A stretch of 23,895 nt of DNA from positions 1 through 23,895 of IMG/VR virus record IMGVR_UViG_3300020056_000168; one strand, given 5' to 3'. Below are positions 9,065 to 22,012 of the stretch, piece by piece. A model generated the notes under the pieces. The model saw only the letters and a list, made by a program, of their open reading frames with translations, was not told where the DNA came from and did no database searches. The stretch comes from a virus. Position numbers and translations under genes: made by a program. Positions within the stretch are counted from its first letter, which is position 1, and each line of letters opens with the position of its first letter.

Positions 9065-10999
9065 ATGCCACTTCAAACAATTAGTTCTGGTGCTTTTAAG
9101 TTTGCAACAATCAAAGACAATCAAAAACAAGTAGCGATTGCTGGTACGATGAATATTTCTGTTGATGATGACAACGAAATATCTGGTGATTTCCGTATTC
9201 ATGACGCTGTTACTCCAGGAGGATTACCTACACCTCCAGCTGGTACTTTGACTTATATGCTCACAGAAAAAATTTGTTTTACACAAACTTTTGTAGCAAC
9301 TACTGATGGTGAAAATTCATTTACAGCCAACACTACATTATATGGACCTTTTGTACAAGATGATAATGTTCGTGTTTTTCTCACGGCTAACTCAACAGAT
9401 CCAAATGATGAATTTGAAATTGATCCTTTGAAAGAAGCATTTACTATAAATTATGCAGCCAACAATGTAACAATCGATACAGCAGAATTTATAAATCAAA
9501 TCAAGGCACATGTAGCAAACAATGTTACAGGTGAAACAATCACTCATCCAACAAAGATACGTTTACAATGGTTAGATGACCGTGTAAATGGAGGAATTCG
9601 AGAAAAGGATGGTTGGCATTTTTGTGATGGTAGAACTTTGCAAAAAAGTGAATATGCCGCCTTGTATAAATCGATTGGGCAATCTTGGAATAATATGTTA
9701 GAAATTCAAGATGTGATTAAAGATGGTTTTGATTTAAGTATTGACCATCCTTTCAATGAAATCAAAGTCATTGAAGGGAATAGTTTGTTTACAAATTTTG
9801 ATGTAAATTATGATGAGAATGAACCGGAAAATTTGATTGCGTATCGTAGAAGTCCAACAGAAGTTCAAGCAGATACATGGGAGACAGCAGAAAGGCTTGT
9901 TGAGGGCGTTCACTATACAAAATCTGGAGGAAATTTATTTACAACAACAGTAGGAAATGTTCTCGATACACGATGGGAAATTTTGATTTTGACAAAGAAA
10001 CCAAGTGATGAATTTCAGATACCTGACCTGAGAGGATATTATCTAAGGTCTATAGGTTCTTGGGATAATCGTGATACAGCAGTATCGGGCAATCCTCAAA
10101 AATATGGTATTCGTACTCGACAAGAAGATACAATTAAAAAACATAGTCACTTTTTGGCATTCAACTCTGCCGGTGAGCATTCACATGATTATACTCCTTG
10201 GTTGTATAATGACCGAACATCAACTAGTCCCAATCATTCTGCTGAATTAATAATGCCTGGTGGAAGCGCAACGAAGAACGCAGACTATAACAAGCTAAAG
10301 GCTGTTCGTAGAGGTATTGGTAAACACTACAGACACGTAGGTGACAATTGGCATCTAAGAGTTCCTTCAATATATGATCTGCCATGGTCTATGTCTCAAA
10401 CTATGCAGAGTACATGGTCTGGTTGGACCGGTTGGCAAAATCACACGATTAATAATGCCTGGAGTTATACCGCTTGGTGGACACCTTCTGGTGGTTCAGC
10501 TGGCCATTACGACCGTGTAGATCCTAGCTGGACAGAATGGAATACTTGGCGAAATTTCCACAATCCTTATTTTACAAGAAATGAAACTAAAGATTTTTAT
10601 GCGTTACTAGGAAATTTTGGCTCCAATAGTGGAGATTATGGATATTCAGGTTGGGATGTCGCAAGAAATTATTCAAGGGCTGAAAATATTAAAAATCCAA
10701 CTTCTGCTTATGAAGATGGTGCGCCTTATTATGCAAGTGAATATTGTATTCGGTCTCAACATCGAAATCAACATCATCCCATCATGTCGAGAAATTTAAT
10801 TGAACCACGATATTTTTTATTAGGTGGCGGACCAACAGATCCTATCAAATCTCAAGACCAATATCATCATCATGAAATTTGGTTCGAAGAACCGGATGCT
10901 TCTTTTCATCACACAAGTTCACAAGGTTCAACGAGTGAAAAATATCAAGAAGAAGTTGATATGCCACACATAAAGCTACCAATTTTCATCAAATATTAA
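9065..10999 (+). CDS. Tail fibre / adhesin with split collar domain and Trp-rich C-terminal region (second of three)
   Basis: A 644-residue protein. Residues 1-170 are a beta-rich N-terminal region (VAIAGTMNISVDDDNEISG). The collar domain begins at about 182 (DGWHFCDGRTLQKSEYAALY) and resumes at about 318 (FQIPDLRGYYLRSIGSWDNRD), with roughly 100 residues inserted between the usual halves. The region at about 440-500 is unusually rich in tryptophan (STWSGWTGWQN, NAWSYTAWW, SWTEWNTWRNF). The end, LPIFIKY, keeps the terminal IKY of its neighbours. It starts 8 bases after the previous stop with a good GGAGA site. It is likely a trimeric receptor-binding fibre displayed at the tail, with the aromatic insert as the probable receptor-contact tip. 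Confidence 0.85.
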   Translation: MPLQTISSGAFKFATIKDNQKQVAIAGTMNISVDDDNEISGDFRIHDAVTPGGLPTPPAGTLTYMLTEKICFTQTFVATTDGENSFTANTTLYGPFVQDDNVRVFLTANSTDPNDEFEIDPLKEAFTINYAANNVTIDTAEFINQIKAHVANNVTGETITHPTKIRLQWLDDRVNGGIREKDGWHFCDGRTLQKSEYAALYKSIGQSWNNMLEIQDVIKDGFDLSIDHPFNEIKVIEGNSLFTNFDVNYDENEPENLIAYRRSPTEVQADTWETAERLVEGVHYTKSGGNLFTTTVGNVLDTRWEILILTKKPSDEFQIPDLRGYYLRSIGSWDNRDTAVSGNPQKYGIRTRQEDTIKKHSHFLAFNSAGEHSHDYTPWLYNDRTSTSPNHSAELIMPGGSATKNADYNKLKAVRRGIGKHYRHVGDNWHLRVPSIYDLPWSMSQTMQSTWSGWTGWQNHTINNAWSYTAWWTPSGGSAGHYDRVDPSWTEWNTWRNFHNPYFTRNETKDFYALLGNFGSNSGDYGYSGWDVARNYSRAENIKNPTSAYEDGAPYYASEYCIRSQHRNQHHPIMSRNLIEPRYFLLGGGPTDPIKSQDQYHHHEIWFEEPDASFHHTSSQGSTSEKYQEEVDMPHIKLPIFIKY

Positions 11000-11007
11000 G
11001 AGTCTAC

Positions 11008-13275
11008 ATGGATAACTATTTTTCAAATAGAATTACAATTGAAGAAATTAAATCGAATATAAATGCCAAATTTCCTCCTGGAGATCAGCGTTTAGATTCA
11101 TATCCTCCAGGTGTAGGTTATCAACAAATTCAAAGACTTTCTGGATTCGCCACAGCAAAGGTACCAACAACAGATATGTTTGCTTCTTCTGGAGGAACAG
11201 AAAGATTTCCAAGTACTAAAGGTCAATTAGTAATTGTTACAGATGGTTATGATTCTGATGGTAATCCATATGGTGAAACTGATACGATGTATGCCACTGG
11301 TCCTTCACGATATGTACCTTTATATAATAGTATTTTTACTGGCGACATGAGGCTTCTTGATGGAGGAAAAAATCCAATTGGTCAAACATTTCCACCAATT
11401 GGATCATTGGGCTATTTTGCTTATAATGGTGTTCCTAACGGATGGTTAGAACTCAAGGGTCAAGGACTTTTATATTTAAAAAGTAAATTTTATGATATAA
11501 ATGGTGTTCAAATCAGTTCAAGAGCAGAAACCAATTTTGCTTATGAAATTACACAAGATACAGAATATACACCTTTATTCAATATACTTTACTCTTGGGG
11601 AATTGTAAAAACAACACCTTCAAACAACGGATGGAACTTTTTCTTACCAAAATGGCAAGGTTACTTTATACGGTGTATTAATCCATCTTCAACAGGAATT
11701 GATCCTGGCTCTCGAATTTGGCATCCAAGTGAAAGAACACATATCAACGCTTCAAGAGTAACTGATACTACTCCTACATTTGGTCATATTCCTGTTCTAA
11801 AACATACACATTATTCAAAAATTCTTCAGCGGCATTTCCGCGGAGGTCTAGATGGTCATGGTATTCGTGAAGATTGGGGAACAACGAATTTTATGCGTTT
11901 CTGGAGAAACACTCAAAATGCTGCTCATCATACAGCCGGTTCTCATTATTCTATAACAGGACAAGCAAATAGTTATACTACTTGGCGAGATTATATTGGT
12001 CAACACTGGTCATCTAGTAACTATAGACAAACATATAATTTTCATCCATTTCTTCATTCAAATTCTACAACACGTTACGGAATGCCCTACTTTGATTCAA
12101 GAACAGGAGGGCATAATTTAGATCGATTTAAAAATTTCGTGGTAGGTGGTTTTAAGAAACATCTTCGAAAAAGATATTATGGTGATGTTGAATGGAATGA
12201 TCCGGCTGCTGTAGATTATACTGCACATTATCATGATGGAGAAAGACCTGATGGATGGACATCATGCTACCAAGGAAATGCACAAGCTCCCCGAGATTCT
12301 GCTGGTAACACGCACTGGTGGTGGCATTGGAACGAAAAGTATTTTGAGGATACAAACTCAAGGTCAGGATTTGGGGATGATTGGTGGTGGTCTACTGGAT
12401 ATAATAGTGCTGAACAACTTGGTAGACATAGCACTTATTTTTGGCAAGGTTATTACCGAATGCGAAGATGGTGGGATGCTGGAAATGGAAATTGGTTTGC
12501 CAAAGCTTGGTGGGCTTCTTTAAAACCCGGTACAGCAGGCAGTCCACAGGGTGATAGAACAACGAGTAAACAATTTATTGCTAATGCTGCTTTTCTACCA
12601 TTTAAAGATTATTACGGAAACGAATCTACTTGTACGTGGACTGCTCATCGGGCTTGGTCTGATTATCCCAATCCTTATAAAAATGTTGATACAAATCATT
12701 TTCCTCCAGTAAATGCTTTCGGTATGTCAACATTTTATTCAGATGAATATCCTCATAATCAACATAATAATAATAATGAATTAAAAAATATTGCTCGAGC
12801 ACGTGTCGGACGTTATCATTCATATCGTTATCACTTTCATAATGAAGTAAAGACTTACTGGAGAGCAAAAGAAAATTGGTGGGGAACGTTTTTACATAGC
12901 TTTGAAACCTATAACGCTCGGCATGGCAGTGACAATAATCATTTTCGTAATTGGGGTGGTAGTTGGAATGCAAATTATGCTAGTTGGTGGTGGATGGGAT
13001 ATGATCGAGACAGAAACTACACTTCACAAAGTGGAACCGCAAGCTGGTTTCAGAGATGGGGACTGAATTGGACCTTTCCATATCATATCAAGCGTTCTCC
13101 TGCAGGAACAAATGATGGTACTGAAATTTTAAATACTGGTAATGATGGTGATCCAACAACTACATCAGGAAACCATCGACACTCAATTCATGAAGGTAAT
13201 AATGGTATATTTGCTAGAGGAGACTATGAAAGTCGTCCAAACAATATCGCACTTAGACTTTGTATAAAATATTAG
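11008..13275 (+). CDS. Large tail fibre / adhesin with collar domain and very Trp-rich C-terminal half (third of three)
   Basis: A 755-residue protein. A divergent collar domain spans about 128-240: FPPIGSLGYFAYNGVPNGWLE, then FFLPKWQGYFIRCINPSS and GIDPGSRIWHPSERTH. Residues about 270-720 are dominated by Trp, His, Tyr, Asn and Gly (HWWWHWNEK, DDWWWSTGY, YYRMRRWWDAGNGNW, ASWWWMGYDRDRN). By eye it has about 37 tryptophans in 755 residues. The end is NNIALRLCIKY, the conserved terminal motif. It starts 8 bases after the second fibre with only a weak AAGAG site. The layout suggests a shared collar-plus-IKY frame carrying a fast-changing receptor-binding insert. The receptor is unknown; aromatic surfaces often bind sugars, which is inference here. 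Confidence 0.85.
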   Translation: MDNYFSNRITIEEIKSNINAKFPPGDQRLDSYPPGVGYQQIQRLSGFATAKVPTTDMFASSGGTERFPSTKGQLVIVTDGYDSDGNPYGETDTMYATGPSRYVPLYNSIFTGDMRLLDGGKNPIGQTFPPIGSLGYFAYNGVPNGWLELKGQGLLYLKSKFYDINGVQISSRAETNFAYEITQDTEYTPLFNILYSWGIVKTTPSNNGWNFFLPKWQGYFIRCINPSSTGIDPGSRIWHPSERTHINASRVTDTTPTFGHIPVLKHTHYSKILQRHFRGGLDGHGIREDWGTTNFMRFWRNTQNAAHHTAGSHYSITGQANSYTTWRDYIGQHWSSSNYRQTYNFHPFLHSNSTTRYGMPYFDSRTGGHNLDRFKNFVVGGFKKHLRKRYYGDVEWNDPAAVDYTAHYHDGERPDGWTSCYQGNAQAPRDSAGNTHWWWHWNEKYFEDTNSRSGFGDDWWWSTGYNSAEQLGRHSTYFWQGYYRMRRWWDAGNGNWFAKAWWASLKPGTAGSPQGDRTTSKQFIANAAFLPFKDYYGNESTCTWTAHRAWSDYPNPYKNVDTNHFPPVNAFGMSTFYSDEYPHNQHNNNNELKNIARARVGRYHSYRYHFHNEVKTYWRAKENWWGTFLHSFETYNARHGSDNNHFRNWGGSWNANYASWWWMGYDRDRNYTSQSGTASWFQRWGLNWTFPYHIKRSPAGTNDGTEILNTGNDGDPTTTSGNHRHSIHEGNNGIFARGDYESRPNNIALRLCIKY

Positions 13276-15648: not shown

Positions 15649-16140
15649 ATGTTTATTACAAATATATCTACCAATGAATTTGACCGTTTTCTACGTCATT
15701 CAATTAATGTTTTTGACCACTTAGATGAAGTGTTTCGAGAATCTCGCTTCTCGAGCAATGTGACTTCAACATTTCCCCCTCACAATATTCGCCAAAAAGA
15801 TAATTCGTATCTGATTGAAATGGCCGTTGCTGGTTTCTCGAAAGATGAAATCACAATCACAAAAGAAAAAGATTATTTACACGTGGAAGGAAAGAAAGCC
15901 GAAGATGAAAAAAACGATGAGTATCTAACTTATCGTGGTATCGCTTCACGTTCTTTCAAAAAATCTTTTGTGTTAGGTAAAAATATGAAAGTATTGGCGG
16001 CTGATGTGAAAGATGGATTGTTGTTTATTGGTCTTGAGAAGGAAGTTCCTGAAAAGGATAAACCTCAGACAATTGAAATCGGATCAGATCAAAGTATATT
16101 GTCAAATATTGTTTCGAGTGTCAAGAAATTGGCCGCATAA
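15649..16140 (+). CDS. hsp20: Small heat shock protein, Hsp20 / alpha-crystallin family
   Basis: A 163-residue protein, the normal size for Hsp20. Residues about 45-145 form the alpha-crystallin domain: YLIEMAVAGFSKDEITITKE, YLHVEGKK, GIASRSFKKSFVLG, and the family mark DVKDGLLFIGLEKEVPE. It is an ATP-independent chaperone that holds unfolding proteins; phage versions are known in marine T4-like phages, but their exact role in infection is not established. I chose ATG 15649 because AGGAGG sits 4 bases upstream; an in-frame TTG at 15613 lies inside the leader hairpins. It has its own promoter and a terminator-like hairpin after it, so it may be a one-gene transcript with some read-through. Confidence 0.95.
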   Translation: MFITNISTNEFDRFLRHSINVFDHLDEVFRESRFSSNVTSTFPPHNIRQKDNSYLIEMAVAGFSKDEITITKEKDYLHVEGKKAEDEKNDEYLTYRGIASRSFKKSFVLGKNMKVLAADVKDGLLFIGLEKEVPEKDKPQTIEIGSDQSILSNIVSSVKKLAA

Positions 16141-16869: not shown

Positions 16870-17448
16870 ATGTTACACATTGGCGTTGATTTTTCCATTA
16901 CAAGTCCTTGCGTTTGTTTTTGGAATACAAACAAAGAACATCTCTTTGAAAATTGTGACTTCTTTTTTCTAAAGTCTCACAACAAGCAAAACGATTATCC
17001 ATCAAATATTTCATTCGCAGATTCCTCATTTTCGAAAGACAACTCAATTCGTTTTTCTGAAAATGCTCAGGTTCTTAGGACTGAAATTAAAAAAAGACTT
17101 GACTCTTCACGCCATTATGCTATAATGATGGAAGGCTATTCAATGGGAGCAAAGGGTAGACTTTTTGACATTGGTGAAGCAACAGGAATTTTCAAGTATT
17201 TTCTTTCGCAAGAAAAAATTAACCCAATTATAATAGCACCTTCGGTAATTAAAAAGAATGCTACAGGAAAAGGTAATGCGAACAAATATCAAATGCTTGA
17301 AAAATTTTTAGAAATAAATAGTAGTTTACTCGAATCACAATGGGTAAAAAATCTTATCACGGAAAAGCGTTTACAATCTCCGTTGACCGATATTGTAGAC
17401 GCTTTTTTTATTGCTAACTCATTTACGGTTTCATATGATCAAGGCTAA
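16870..17448 (+). CDS. RuvC-like Holliday junction / flap nuclease
   Basis: A 192-residue protein. The RuvC-type acidic quartet is visible in order: D7 in GVDFSITSP, E88 in MMEGYSMG, and D174/D177 in TDIVDAFFIAN. The segment NATGKGNANK at about 132-141 matches the lysine-rich loop that contacts DNA in this fold. The length and layout fit RuvC-family resolvases that cut branched DNA, which in a T4-like phage would be needed before packaging and would parallel T4 endonuclease VII, an unrelated fold. The gene overlaps thyX by 14 bases. Its ribosome-binding site is locked in a perfect hairpin, so expression is probably tightly controlled. Confidence 0.85.
   Translation: MLHIGVDFSITSPCVCFWNTNKEHLFENCDFFFLKSHNKQNDYPSNISFADSSFSKDNSIRFSENAQVLRTEIKKRLDSSRHYAIMMEGYSMGAKGRLFDIGEATGIFKYFLSQEKINPIIIAPSVIKKNATGKGNANKYQMLEKFLEINSSLLESQWVKNLITEKRLQSPLTDIVDAFFIANSFTVSYDQG
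17099..17126 (+). promoter_or_regulatory. Internal sigma70-like promoter candidate before thyX
   Basis: TTGACT (17099-17104), a 16-base spacer, then a consensus TATAAT (17121-17126) with an extended TGC. It lies inside the RuvC-like gene, about 310 bases before thyX. The core TATGCTATA is shared with the hsp20 promoter. Confidence 0.5.
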
Positions 17449-18349
17449 TATAGTTCAAGATAGTAGTCTTCCTACAGGAGAAAGATTATTGACATACAAT
17501 CTCCGATATGGTAGACTTATTCATAGTGAACTTTTGCGGCATCGAGCAGCATCCCATTCAGTCAAAAGTTCAAGAGCAATTCCCACCAAGAAGTATCGCA
17601 AAGAAGTTGAAAATGATCCTTACATTCCAGTCAAATTCGGAACAAATCAAAAAGGCATGCAAGCCGGTAAACAAACAGCAGCCAGTGTTGCCTATGGTAC
17701 TAAAATCTGGAAGCTTTCAGCTAAGTTTGCTTGTATGGCGCATTCACTCATGGAGTATGTGAATGTTCACAAAGAAGTTGCGAATCGTATTTTAGAACCT
17801 TATGTATGGGTTGAAGAAACACTGACAGTTGAATTTGACGCACTTCAACAAATTGCAGAGCTTCGTATTCATGATGATGCTCAAGAAGATATTCGTGCAG
17901 TTGTTGAAGAAATGATTTATGAAGCAGAACAGCATAAAAATAACAGTGTAATTCTGGAAGAGAATCAATGGCATGTGCCTTATGTCATTCGTCAAGTGAA
18001 TGGTAATATGATTTATAAAGATAATGATGGTAAAAACCTTACACTTGATGAAGCAATCATTTGTTCAGCTGCAAGATGTGCGAGAAGTTCTTATGCAAAT
18101 CATGATAATTCAACAACTACATATGAGAATGATACAAAACTTGCTGACCGTTTGATTGGTTCAGAACCAATGCACTTATCACCCTTTGAACATCAGGCAA
18201 GAGCATTTATTAGTCAAGAAGAGCGATATGAATTTGGCTCAAATTTTCGTCATTTCTTTCAGCAACGAAAGGCAATTGAGAGACAGTATGCATCTACAAA
18301 TCAAACCTCTGAAACCTTTGAAGAAGAAAACCTTCAGAAAGCTAGTTGA
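17435..18349 (+). CDS. thyX: Flavin-dependent thymidylate synthase ThyX
   Basis: A 304-residue protein. The ThyX signature RHRx7S is present as R35-H-R-AASHSVK-S45, followed by SRAIPTKKY. Near the C-terminus MHLSPFEHQARAF matches the second family motif, and FRHFFQQRKA follows. ThyX makes dTMP from dUMP using methylene-tetrahydrofolate, FAD and NADPH, so it supplies thymidine for phage DNA. At 304 residues it is longer than typical cellular ThyX (about 220-250); the extra length is mostly a helical middle section (about 130-180). I chose ATG 17435; an in-frame ATG at 17411 would extend further into the nuclease gene. It overlaps the nuclease by 14 bases and the methyltransferase by 62. Confidence 0.93.
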   Translation: MIKANIVQDSSLPTGERLLTYNLRYGRLIHSELLRHRAASHSVKSSRAIPTKKYRKEVENDPYIPVKFGTNQKGMQAGKQTAASVAYGTKIWKLSAKFACMAHSLMEYVNVHKEVANRILEPYVWVEETLTVEFDALQQIAELRIHDDAQEDIRAVVEEMIYEAEQHKNNSVILEENQWHVPYVIRQVNGNMIYKDNDGKNLTLDEAIICSAARCARSSYANHDNSTTTYENDTKLADRLIGSEPMHLSPFEHQARAFISQEERYEFGSNFRHFFQQRKAIERQYASTNQTSETFEEENLQKAS

Positions 18350-19622
18350 AGAAAACTGGAGAAGCCCAAACAAAGCAATTCTTCAACATATTGAAGATAC
18401 AGCAGATCGAAAAGGCTATCCACATATACCGAATTGGCTCGACTTCACTCAGGGAAAGAATGAAGTTGAAGTCTATTCGACGTTGATGAACTATATTCTA
18501 ACAAAGCAACTTCCTCTACCAAGTTCAAGAGGAACAGAAGAGGATGCTCAAAAGGCTTTTCACAAGTATAAGTATAAAACATTTGCGCCTTTTGTTCATT
18601 CGAATGATGTTGACCGAGAACTTACACATCGTTTGACTGAAAGTTTGAAATATAAACATGACTATTGCGATGAGTATACATTAGGTTATTTTCCTCAGTA
18701 TACTCGAGCAAATCCTATTTCAAACTATTTTGCTGAAGGTGAGAGATTGTTATGTGAAGTGATCAATAAAGAATCACCAACTTTTTTATGGACAGAAGAG
18801 CATGGTGTTTCTCGTTTGATGGACACGATGAGAAGAATCGGTGTGAAAAAATTGAGTGAGGCAACCTTTAAAAGTTTCTTTGCTCATGCCGGTCAAATTG
18901 CGGCTCAGTTCAATGTGAACACGGCAAAGAACATCTACAACACCGCAAAGGGAGATGTGATTTTTGACATCTCTTGCGGATGGGGTGATCGATTGACAGG
19001 CTTTTATCTTTCAGAGAAAAGCACATATTATGGCACTGATCCAAATCTAAATATGTTTGAGATTTATAAAGAAATGTGCCACGCCTATGAGAAATGGTTA
19101 GGTTGTGAAAACCCTACGTTTCTTGAAGGAGAAGATTATTTTGAAATTCGTGGTAAGAAACATGTTCGAATCTACAATCTTCCTGCTGAAGATGTGAATT
19201 ATGATGAAATACCTGATATTGATTTGACATTTTCATCACCGCCTTATTTCAATAAAGAACTCTATGGTAAGAATTCTCAGGCGCAAAAGAATCAATCATG
19301 GAGCCGATATGTCACAGAAGACGCCTGGCTCACAGATTTTCTTTATAAGATTATGGATGAACTCATACCTAAATCAAAGACAACAATGATCAATATCACT
19401 GACGTAGGTATTGATAAAAATCGTGTGAACATTTGTGATCCAATGGTAGAACGATACAAAGATTCTTTTGTTGGCATCGCAGGATTTCAACTTTCAAAAA
19501 ATATGAATGTAAAAGATGACAAGCATATGTTCAAGAAAGATACAATTTACACTGAACCTATTTGGACATTTGGTGAACCTTTAGTTGAAATCAAACGAAC
19601 AAAACTTTTAGACTTATTTTGA
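18288..19622 (+). CDS. DNA methyltransferase (amino-MTase, SPPY type)
   Basis: A 444-residue protein if it starts at ATG 18288. A SAM-binding motif I-like segment, DISCGWGDRLTGFY, begins near residue 227, followed by YYGTDPN. The catalytic motif IV is FSSPPYFNKELYG with P318-P-Y320. SPPY is common in N4-cytosine methyltransferases and is also found in some N6-adenine ones. Motif I precedes motif IV (alpha/gamma order). The first 200 residues, including WRSPNKAILQH and the YKYKTFAPF region, may recognise the target. The start overlaps thyX by 62 bases; an upstream in-frame ATG at 18156 would overlap by almost 200. Likely roles are self-DNA protection or regulation. The target base is not decidable here. 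Confidence 0.82.
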   Translation: MHLQIKPLKPLKKKTFRKLVEENWRSPNKAILQHIEDTADRKGYPHIPNWLDFTQGKNEVEVYSTLMNYILTKQLPLPSSRGTEEDAQKAFHKYKYKTFAPFVHSNDVDRELTHRLTESLKYKHDYCDEYTLGYFPQYTRANPISNYFAEGERLLCEVINKESPTFLWTEEHGVSRLMDTMRRIGVKKLSEATFKSFFAHAGQIAAQFNVNTAKNIYNTAKGDVIFDISCGWGDRLTGFYLSEKSTYYGTDPNLNMFEIYKEMCHAYEKWLGCENPTFLEGEDYFEIRGKKHVRIYNLPAEDVNYDEIPDIDLTFSSPPYFNKELYGKNSQAQKNQSWSRYVTEDAWLTDFLYKIMDELIPKSKTTMINITDVGIDKNRVNICDPMVERYKDSFVGIAGFQLSKNMNVKDDKHMFKKDTIYTEPIWTFGEPLVEIKRTKLLDLF

Positions 19623-19628
19623 GGAACT

Positions 19629-19913
19629 ATGGCATTACATCGTATCACTGCAATCTTTGATAAAGATAAAGTATTTGAAAAGATACTTAATCTTGATTAT
19701 TTAATTTCAATTGAACCATATGCAGAAAAAGATAATTGTTATTTAAAGTTTGTAACAACAACAGAAGAATTTAGTTTTGTTTACAATAATATGGAAGATA
19801 TGAAGATGGATTATGACAAGATTCATGAAAGCATGTCAGACCAATTCAATTCAACACAAACAGTAATAAATGGATGTATAGATATCAAAACTTCCGAAAC
19901 ACTTTTAGGGTAA
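19629..19913 (+). CDS. Hypothetical small protein
   Basis: A 94-residue protein with a GAGG site 6 bases before the ATG. It reads as alternating strands and a helix (LHRITAIFDKDKVFEKI, CYLKFVTTTEEFSFVY) with no motif I recognise and no membrane segment. It lies between the methyltransferase and the flavoprotein with gaps of 6 bases and 1 base, so it belongs to the same operon. Confidence 0.7.
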   Translation: MALHRITAIFDKDKVFEKILNLDYLISIEPYAEKDNCYLKFVTTTEEFSFVYNNMEDMKMDYDKIHESMSDQFNSTQTVINGCIDIKTSETLLG

Positions 19914-19914
19914 T

Positions 19915-21360
19915 ATGAAACAAGTAGACGTAGCAGTAATTGGTGCCGGTTCAGCAGGAATGTCAGCCTACCGAGCAGTTAAAAAAGCAGATAAATCATG
20001 CGTTTTAATTGAGAATCATTTGTATGGAACAACCTGTGCAAGAACTGGATGTATGCCAAGTAAACTTTTAATTGCTGCGGCTAATTCAGCACATAATATT
20101 CGTAAAGCATCTCAGTTTGGTGTTCATGTAGATTTGAATACTCTTGAAATCAATCGTAGTGATGTGATGAAAAGAGTTCGAAAAGAACGAGAAAGATTTG
20201 TTAATTTTGTTCTTGATGATGTTTATGATTTCCCCGAAGAGGATCGTGTCTTAGGAAATTATCATTTCATTAATGAAAACACATTAGAAAATGAATTAGG
20301 TGAAAAAATTCAAGCAAAAAGATTTGTTCTTGCGACAGGAACAAAACCTTTTGTTCTTCCTCAATTTGCTGACATACCAGACCGTGTATTAGATACAGAA
20401 GATTTCTTTAACTTTCATGTTTTACCTAAGAGTGTTTGTGTTGTTGGAACAGGAGCGATTGGTTTAGAACTTGGTCAAGCTTTGACCAGATTAGGTGTTC
20501 GTGTGACCATTTTAGGAATTTCAAATCTGATTGGACCCATTACAGACCCAGAACTGTTAGACTTAGCAAACGAATTGTTTCGAAGAGAATGTCGAATTTT
20601 CAATGATGCCAATATCTTAACTGCTGAACTTGTTCAAAAAGAAGGTGATGAATATGAAAAAGTAGTTGAAGTTCGTTTTGAACAAGACAATGTTATTTAC
20701 CGAGAACAATTCGAATATGTTCTTTCTGCTACAGGGCGAGTGCCAAATCTTGAAAAACTTTGTCTTGAAGCAACGCCTCTAAAGTTTGAAAAGAAAAGAC
20801 CAGTTTACAATACAAATACTTTACAATGTATGAATGAAGATGGCACACCATCATTCTTTTTCATCGCTGGTGATATCACAGGAGATCGAATGATTCTACA
20901 TGAAGCAATTTGGGAAGGTCAATTTGCTGGTAGAAATGTAATTAATTCATTGCGAGATGGTTATATCGATGCTGCTCCACTTCTCGTTGAGCAAAGAAAA
21001 ATTCACACTCCTTTAGGTATTGTTTTCACCGATCCTGAAATTTGTATGGTTGGTTTGACACATTCAGAATTGACAGACCAGCATCGTATTGGTAGAGTGA
21101 ATTTTGAGAATCAAGGTCGTTCTCGTATTCAGCTAAAGAATTATGGAGCTTTACATATCTATGCTGACGTTTCAGATCGAAAGATTGTTGGTTGTGAGAT
21201 GTGTGGACCAGCCGCAGAACATCTTGGTCATCTGATTGCTTGGGCAATTGAATCTGAAACAACTGTTGATCAAGCTCTCGAGATGCCTTTCTATCATCCT
21301 GTAGTTGAAGAAGGTTTACGAACGGCTTTGAGAGATTTACGTATTAAATTAGATGAATAG
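19915..21360 (+). CDS. lpd: Dihydrolipoamide dehydrogenase-type FAD/NAD disulfide oxidoreductase
   Basis: A 481-residue, full-length class I flavoprotein disulfide reductase. FAD binding: G10-A-G-S-A-G15. Redox pair: C41 and C46 in GTTCARTGCMPSK. NAD(P) binding: G178-T-G-A-I-G183. Second FAD motif: FIAGDITG near 318-325. The dimer domain ends with H461-P-V-V-E-E466 and GLRTALRDL, the catalytic His-Glu pair. The CARxGCMPSK box and the HPVVEEGLRTALRD ending match, as I recall them, a lipoamide-dehydrogenase-like branch found in gammaproteobacteria. It would oxidise dihydrolipoyl groups or another dithiol with NAD. This is rare in phages and points to capture of a host metabolic gene. All catalytic residues are kept, so it is probably active. 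It starts 1 base after the previous stop and overlaps the next gene by 8 bases. Confidence 0.9.
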   Translation: MKQVDVAVIGAGSAGMSAYRAVKKADKSCVLIENHLYGTTCARTGCMPSKLLIAAANSAHNIRKASQFGVHVDLNTLEINRSDVMKRVRKERERFVNFVLDDVYDFPEEDRVLGNYHFINENTLENELGEKIQAKRFVLATGTKPFVLPQFADIPDRVLDTEDFFNFHVLPKSVCVVGTGAIGLELGQALTRLGVRVTILGISNLIGPITDPELLDLANELFRRECRIFNDANILTAELVQKEGDEYEKVVEVRFEQDNVIYREQFEYVLSATGRVPNLEKLCLEATPLKFEKKRPVYNTNTLQCMNEDGTPSFFFIAGDITGDRMILHEAIWEGQFAGRNVINSLRDGYIDAAPLLVEQRKIHTPLGIVFTDPEICMVGLTHSELTDQHRIGRVNFENQGRSRIQLKNYGALHIYADVSDRKIVGCEMCGPAAEHLGHLIAWAIESETTVDQALEMPFYHPVVEEGLRTALRDLRIKLDE

Positions 21361-22012
21361 ATTTATGGTATACTCAGATATAAAGATCGTAGCGGAGAGG
21401 ATTCAAACCGAGAACATTGAATTTTATCAAATTGAAAACTTTCTCACCAAATATGAGTGTGACAATCTCATTGAGATTATGAAACCAAGATTGATACCTT
21501 CAAAAGTTGTCAACAATGATAAAAACTACGCCATACAACCAGAAAAAGTTGATATGAATTTTCGCACAAGTTCAACTTGTCAGTTTCAAAATGATGAAAA
21601 CATTCTCATCTCAATTCTTGATTCAAAGATTTCACTCACAGTTGGACTTGATTCAAAACATGGTGAACCTGTTCAGGGACAACACTATCTACCTGGTCAA
21701 GAATTCAAGGCACATTTTGATCCATTCCCGGTGAATGAGCAAAATGCTGTTCATCTAAGAAGAGGTGGTCAAAGGACTTGGACCTTCATGATTTATCTGA
21801 ATGATGTCGAATCTGGAGGCGAGACAGAATTCCCTGAGATTCCTCTGACAGTCACTCCAAAAACAGGAAAAGGAATTTTCTGGAACAACTTGACAATTGA
21901 CTCAAAAGGTGATACGATCATTAACAACTATGCTTCACACCGTGGCTGCCCTGTGGTCAGCGGTGAAAAATATATCCTCACTAAATGGTTTCGTGAACTT
22001 TATTTCAAATAA
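21353..22012 (+). CDS. 2OG-Fe(II) dioxygenase, prolyl 4-hydroxylase-like
   Basis: A 219-residue protein. The iron facial triad is visible: H121-x-D123 in KAHFDPFP and H196 in ASHRGCPV, with K206 in GEKYILTKWF placed to bind 2-oxoglutarate. TWTFMIYLNDVESGGETEFP is the usual core between them. Such genes are common in marine T4-like phages; the substrate, a protein or a nucleotide, is not known. The start ATG 21353 overlaps the flavoprotein stop by 8 bases. An alternative in-frame ATG at 21365 is possible, and neither has a strong ribosome-binding site. Sharing a transcript with a flavin oxidoreductase may be chance. Confidence 0.9.
   Translation: MNRFMVYSDIKIVAERIQTENIEFYQIENFLTKYECDNLIEIMKPRLIPSKVVNNDKNYAIQPEKVDMNFRTSSTCQFQNDENILISILDSKISLTVGLDSKHGEPVQGQHYLPGQEFKAHFDPFPVNEQNAVHLRRGGQRTWTFMIYLNDVESGGETEFPEIPLTVTPKTGKGIFWNNLTIDSKGDTIINNYASHRGCPVVSGEKYILTKWFRELYFK

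Follow-up and report, generated by a model that had tools for sequence, protein, structure and literature searches.

The reductase gene and its surroundings

The window analysed here is the whole stretch of 23,895 nucleotides, a 23.9-kb IMG/VR fragment that ends inside the polymerase gene gp43; its features are listed in Table 1. The reductase reading frame begins with ATG and encodes 481 amino acids followed by a stop codon. Its product carries Pyr_redox_2 (E 5.5e-32) and Pyr_redox_dim (E 1.5e-18) domains, both above the Pfam cut-off, and across an alignment of 38 relatives the cysteine pair C41/C46, the dyad H461/E466 and the glycines at each nucleotide site are all retained. The gene is real and intact, and all the motifs of a flavoprotein disulfide reductase are present. 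The original prediction was thus borne out on superfamily, completeness, intact catalytic parts and the unusual location of the gene. The AlphaFold2 model has a mean pLDDT of 90.1 and a pTM of 0.88, and its best PDB match is 3ic9 (TM 0.91), which aligns with the reductase by sequence at 384 bits.

Table 1. Features of the window around the reductase gene
Feature	Position	Strand	Basis
ThyX, flavin-dependent thymidylate synthase	17435..18349	+	profile matches
Conserved phage protein with weak similarity to DNA methylases of phages, start position uncertain	18228..19622	+	
Conserved small protein of 94 aa, ends 1 nt before the reductase	19629..19913	+	comparison with related phages
Mosaic segment	19800..21750	.	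DNA identity, window against L005
GorB-type flavoprotein disulfide reductase, probable NADPH:glutathione-disulfide reductase, 481 aa	19915..21360	+	profiles, tree, model
FAD-binding GxGxxG, residues 10-15 (G10-x-G12-x-x-G15)	19942..19959	+	glycines kept in 38 relatives (alignment)
Redox-active pair C41-x4-C46 inside YGTTCARTGCMPSK	20035..20052	+	alignment of 38 relatives, residue comparison
NAD(P)-binding GxGxxG, residues 178-183 (G178-x-G180-x-x-G183)	20446..20463	+	alignment of 38 relatives, residue comparison
Catalytic dyad H461...E466 (FYHPVVEEGLRT)	21295..21312	+	alignment of 38 relatives, residue comparison
2OG-Fe(II) oxygenase, 8-nt overlap with the reductase end	21353..22012	+	Pfam
DNA polymerase gp43, cut by the contig end	22025..23895	+	

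The gp43 product shares 40% identity with T4-like polymerases of cyanophages, and the phage is, on sequence grounds, T4-like; with ThyX and the oxygenase alongside, the description of the setting as a phage replication operon holds. The 94-aa gene keeps its position in all compared related phages covering that place, and its product had no Pfam match. Elsewhere in the window there is a gene for an Hsp20-type small heat-shock protein (15649-16140), kept in the compared relatives (57-98%), and a set of large His/Trp/Tyr-rich fibre-like genes (9065-13275). The best-aligned parts of the latter are only 28-34% identical to those of the related contig L005, whereas the downstream replication genes are 94-98% identical.

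The reductase frame is no artefact, because the identical protein (100%) is found on two other IMG/VR contigs and versions of 72-73% identity on four more. A relative of 35-36% identity is present in a more distant set of contigs (L104, L105, L106, L107 and L109), at the corresponding position, after the 94-aa gene and before gp43. When the window is compared with L005, DNA identity between 19.8 and 21.75 kb is 62-79% over most of the segment and 81-86% at its edges, against mostly 91-98% in the flanks. Likewise, dS is 1.5 for the reductase and 0.19-0.37 for ThyX, the methylase-like gene and gp43, while dN/dS of the reductase is about 0.14. The segment is read as an allele exchanged by recombination, with both forms under purifying selection, and the reductase is a maintained phage gene. 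The B allele has an additional 123-aa ORF following the reductase, a match to DUF6552 (L005:11400-11771), which is absent from the window. A single clade for the phage copies is not rejected (AU p 0.765), which does not in itself prove a single acquisition. A high-GC relative was also seen on two temperate-phage contigs (L103 and L108).

Family membership and bacterial orthologues

Against the family NF004939, which is named 'dihydrolipoyl dehydrogenase', the window protein scores 547.9 bits (cut-off 435), and the phage relatives in L005 and L106 score 534 and 449 bits. It falls below the cut-offs for canonical Lpd (TIGR01350, 235.2 bits against 408.8), canonical glutathione reductase (NF004776, about 155 against 480) and mercuric reductase (TIGR02053, 209 against 454). 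In the tree, 80 bacterial proteins of the NF004939 type group with the phage proteins, and a split with SH-aLRT 100 sets them apart from Lpd, Gor and SthA; the tree has several long branches, so that its deeper order is unsure. The YGTTCARTGCMPSK motif around the cysteines is typical of the GorB/NF004939 group, the corresponding motifs being GGTCLNVGCIPSK in Lpd and GGTCVNVGCVPKK in Gor. At the end of strand 2 of the NAD(P) site (VTILGISN) neither the Glu of Lpd nor the Arg pair of Gor is seen, and comparison with Gor and Lpd gave no residue-level signature that separates NADPH from NADH use. Orthology gives good support for a GorB-type enzyme of the NF004939/PRK06292.1-1 group, an FAD disulfide reductase that would act as a homodimer; its substrate, cofactor and dimeric state are predicted from sequence.

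In bacteria, 36 of 79 loci have a hybrid Redoxin+Glutaredoxin gene (prxgrx) immediately upstream of the orthologue, in the same orientation and separated from it by 15-294 bp, and LysR genes recur in 23 of 80. A cueR/copZ-prxgrx-gorB locus has been described in B. pertussis, and the recombinant GorB of that species (BP1729) is an NADPH:GSSG reductase with a kcat/Km of 323,000 M-1 s-1 (PMC7794356). In one Bordetella genomosp. 1 locus (L071) and three of Achromobacter (L031, L076 and L098), a small CopZ-like ORF with the motif MTCGHC precedes prxgrx; a divergent MerR-like ORF is found at L071, L076 and L098, and against NF004939 the protein of L071 reaches 705 bits and that of L098 737. By gene order and sequence these four are the predicted gorB of the copZ-prxgrx-gorB operon, and the GorB identity of the group runs through these loci, which share the operon, rather than through the B. 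pertussis sequence itself.

The three Neisseria genomes tested carry a GorB-type gene and have no canonical Gor. As the Neisseria OxyR regulon consists of gor, prx and katA (PMC6172773, PMC2881104), and a prx-adjacent copy is present in L019, we infer that the gor of this regulon is the NF004939 gene. On plasmids the orthologue adjoins catalase/Dps and MsrB.

With its bacterial GorB-type counterparts the phage protein shares only about 45-50% identity, and its substrate could therefore have shifted. The phage gene has no prxgrx directly upstream, and this is also the case for about half of the bacterial members; such adjacency is genomic context and not a defining feature of the protein.

Candidate roles of the reductase

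The reading preferred here, to which we give a probability of roughly 0.6, is that the protein is a GorB-type glutathione reductase which keeps glutathione or glutaredoxin reduced for a phage ribonucleotide reductase with a Grx::NrdB fusion. The suggestion in the original prediction that the enzyme might keep thiols reduced comes close to this. NAD(P)H would reduce FAD, FAD the C41-C46 pair, and this pair glutathione disulfide (or glutathionylated glutaredoxin), while H461/E466 from the other subunit would serve as the acid-base pair; GSH would recharge the Grx domain and this in turn NrdA. Synthesis of dNTPs would thereby become independent of the host reductase, with ThyX in the same gene block. 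The part of this reading that concerns ribonucleotide reduction is held with moderate confidence, at about even odds, from genome content.

No ribonucleotide-reductase genes lie in the 23.9-kb window, and because the record ends inside gp43 those of this phage are deduced from its relatives. In an 84-kb relative (G001), genes for NrdA and a Grx::NrdB fusion lie about 15 kb from the reductase, and in two others (G028 and G029) a free Grx gene directly precedes the one for Grx::NrdB, so that the fusion is present in all three relatives long enough to judge. The distance from reductase to fusion is about 15-17 kb, and the two are not in one operon. Work on Facklamia ignava showed that a Grx domain serves efficiently as the reductant when fused to NrdB (PMC6187632). 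Two sister phages, G036 (146 kb) and G037, keep Grx::NrdB and lack the reductase, meaning that the pairing is not obligatory and that the reductase is accessory in this clade. That this T4-like lineage encodes both ends of a glutathione path, a GorB-type reductase and a Grx fused to NrdB, is a tentative conclusion, somewhat short of even odds.

In sister phages, small free Grx ORFs lie beside the slot without a reductase (L143:3189-3443 and L144:7317-7571), with KCPSC in the L143 ORF and RPSC at the same position in that of L144. In a further sister record of 146.5 kb the slot holds a GMP-synthase-type ORF with GATase and GMP_synt_C domains (L145:7822-9552).

The main rival to a role in ribonucleotide reduction is that the same GorB-type enzyme defends against peroxide or oxidative stress together with a host peroxiredoxin-glutaredoxin. 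The bacterial coupling to PrxGrx and LysR genes and the plasmid copies beside catalase/Dps and MsrB speak for this, as does the early response of YerA41-infected Yersinia ruckeri, in which the 'dihydrolipoamide dehydrogenase' CSF007_17485 (logFC 7.07) and the 'peroxiredoxin/glutaredoxin' CSF007_17480 (logFC 6.95) head the list of genes induced at 15 min (PMC7354516); from their adjacent tags these are presumably the host gorB-prxgrx pair. However, the window, G001, G028 and G029 yielded no peroxiredoxin (Redoxin), and the phage gene sits within a replication and nucleotide block, next to positions that are occupied by Grx or GMP synthase in sister phages. Peroxide defence is considered unlikely.

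A different substrate is improbable, whether by direct reduction of Grx::NrdB without glutathione or by action on another low-molecular thiol or a metal ion as in MerA. Outside its own group the protein has near-equal subfamily scores (Lpd 235, MerA 209 bits) and the gene lies among redox and nucleotide genes, but it misses the MerA cut-off, its C-terminus (RTALRDLRIKLDE, ALRDLRIKLDE) lacks the MerA-like cysteine pair, and the B. pertussis GorB reduces GSSG (PMC7794356).

That the enzyme is a true dihydrolipoamide dehydrogenase, the shared E3 of host pyruvate and 2-oxoglutarate dehydrogenases or of glycine cleavage and so a source of one-carbon units (methylene-THF) for ThyX, was raised in the original prediction, with the one-carbon link as speculation, and is suggested by the names of NF004939 and 3ic9; it is now very improbable, as the protein fails the canonical Lpd cut-off and groups apart from Lpd with the GorB set, whose orthologues include the assayed glutathione reductase of B. 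pertussis, no biotinyl/lipoyl domain (PF00364) was found at E<=1 in the window record or in G001, both incomplete phage records, no E1, E2 or GcvH genes stand beside the orthologues among the neighbour families tallied, and a separate canonical Lpd is present in 26 of 26 tested bacterial genomes with a GorB-type gene. Grouping with enzymes that act on glutathione is an outcome which the original prediction itself had named as counting against it.

Database names and comparison with known systems

The enzyme family is known and has apparently not been described from phages. Among the top hits of the annotated phage collection there was no phage-encoded example that does not look bacterial, BFVD gave no full-length viral structural match, and within the partial literature coverage no report was found of a phage-encoded reductase feeding ribonucleotide reductase. 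The best annotated-phage matches (37.8%) were Acinetobacter 'phage' bins with a 5S rRNA gene; these look bacterial and were set aside as phage evidence. Separately, some proteins of Lactococcus phages that carry the name 'ribonucleotide reductase alpha subunit' (phrog_6397 and BFVD A0A0D3MT87 and E0YIZ6) resemble this flavoprotein in profile or in fold, and these names may be wrong.

The family label 'dihydrolipoyl dehydrogenase' is misleading, since orthology places a glutathione reductase with assayed activity inside NF004939, and labelling viral copies as lipoamide dehydrogenase would give a false hint of viral control over central carbon metabolism. The induced Yersinia gene is an example, as the YerA41 study places it under glycolysis (PMC7354516). 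If the preferred role in ribonucleotide reduction is right, the phage would equip its ribonucleotide reductase with a fused reductant and with the disulfide reductase behind it, NAD(P)H and glutathione from the host would suffice for deoxynucleotide synthesis, and a simple reconstitution in vitro would be possible.

Of the known enzymes, B. pertussis GorB (BP1729) shares the orthologous group, through the Bordetella genomosp. 1 and Achromobacter loci, and the motifs CARxGCMPSK and FYHPxxEEG; the phage protein differs in being phage-borne, in its length of 481 aa, which includes a short additional segment near residues 345-362, and in having no adjoining PrxGrx gene. The closest solved structure, 3ic9, is a bacterial protein, the 'dihydrolipoamide dehydrogenase' of Colwellia psychrerythraea, and no assay behind this name was seen in the literature covered. 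Canonical Lpd has the same fold, CxxxxC and His-Glu dyad, whereas the phage protein differs around the cysteines and lacks both the Glu at the end of strand 2 and lipoyl partners. With canonical Gor it probably shares the substrate, by orthology to GorB, but it has neither GCVPKK nor the Tyr of GxGYIAVE. Finally, the Grx::NrdB fusion known from Facklamia, Francisella and vibrio phages (PMC6187632) is also found in the relatives of this phage, and to it these relatives add a reductase gene of their own.
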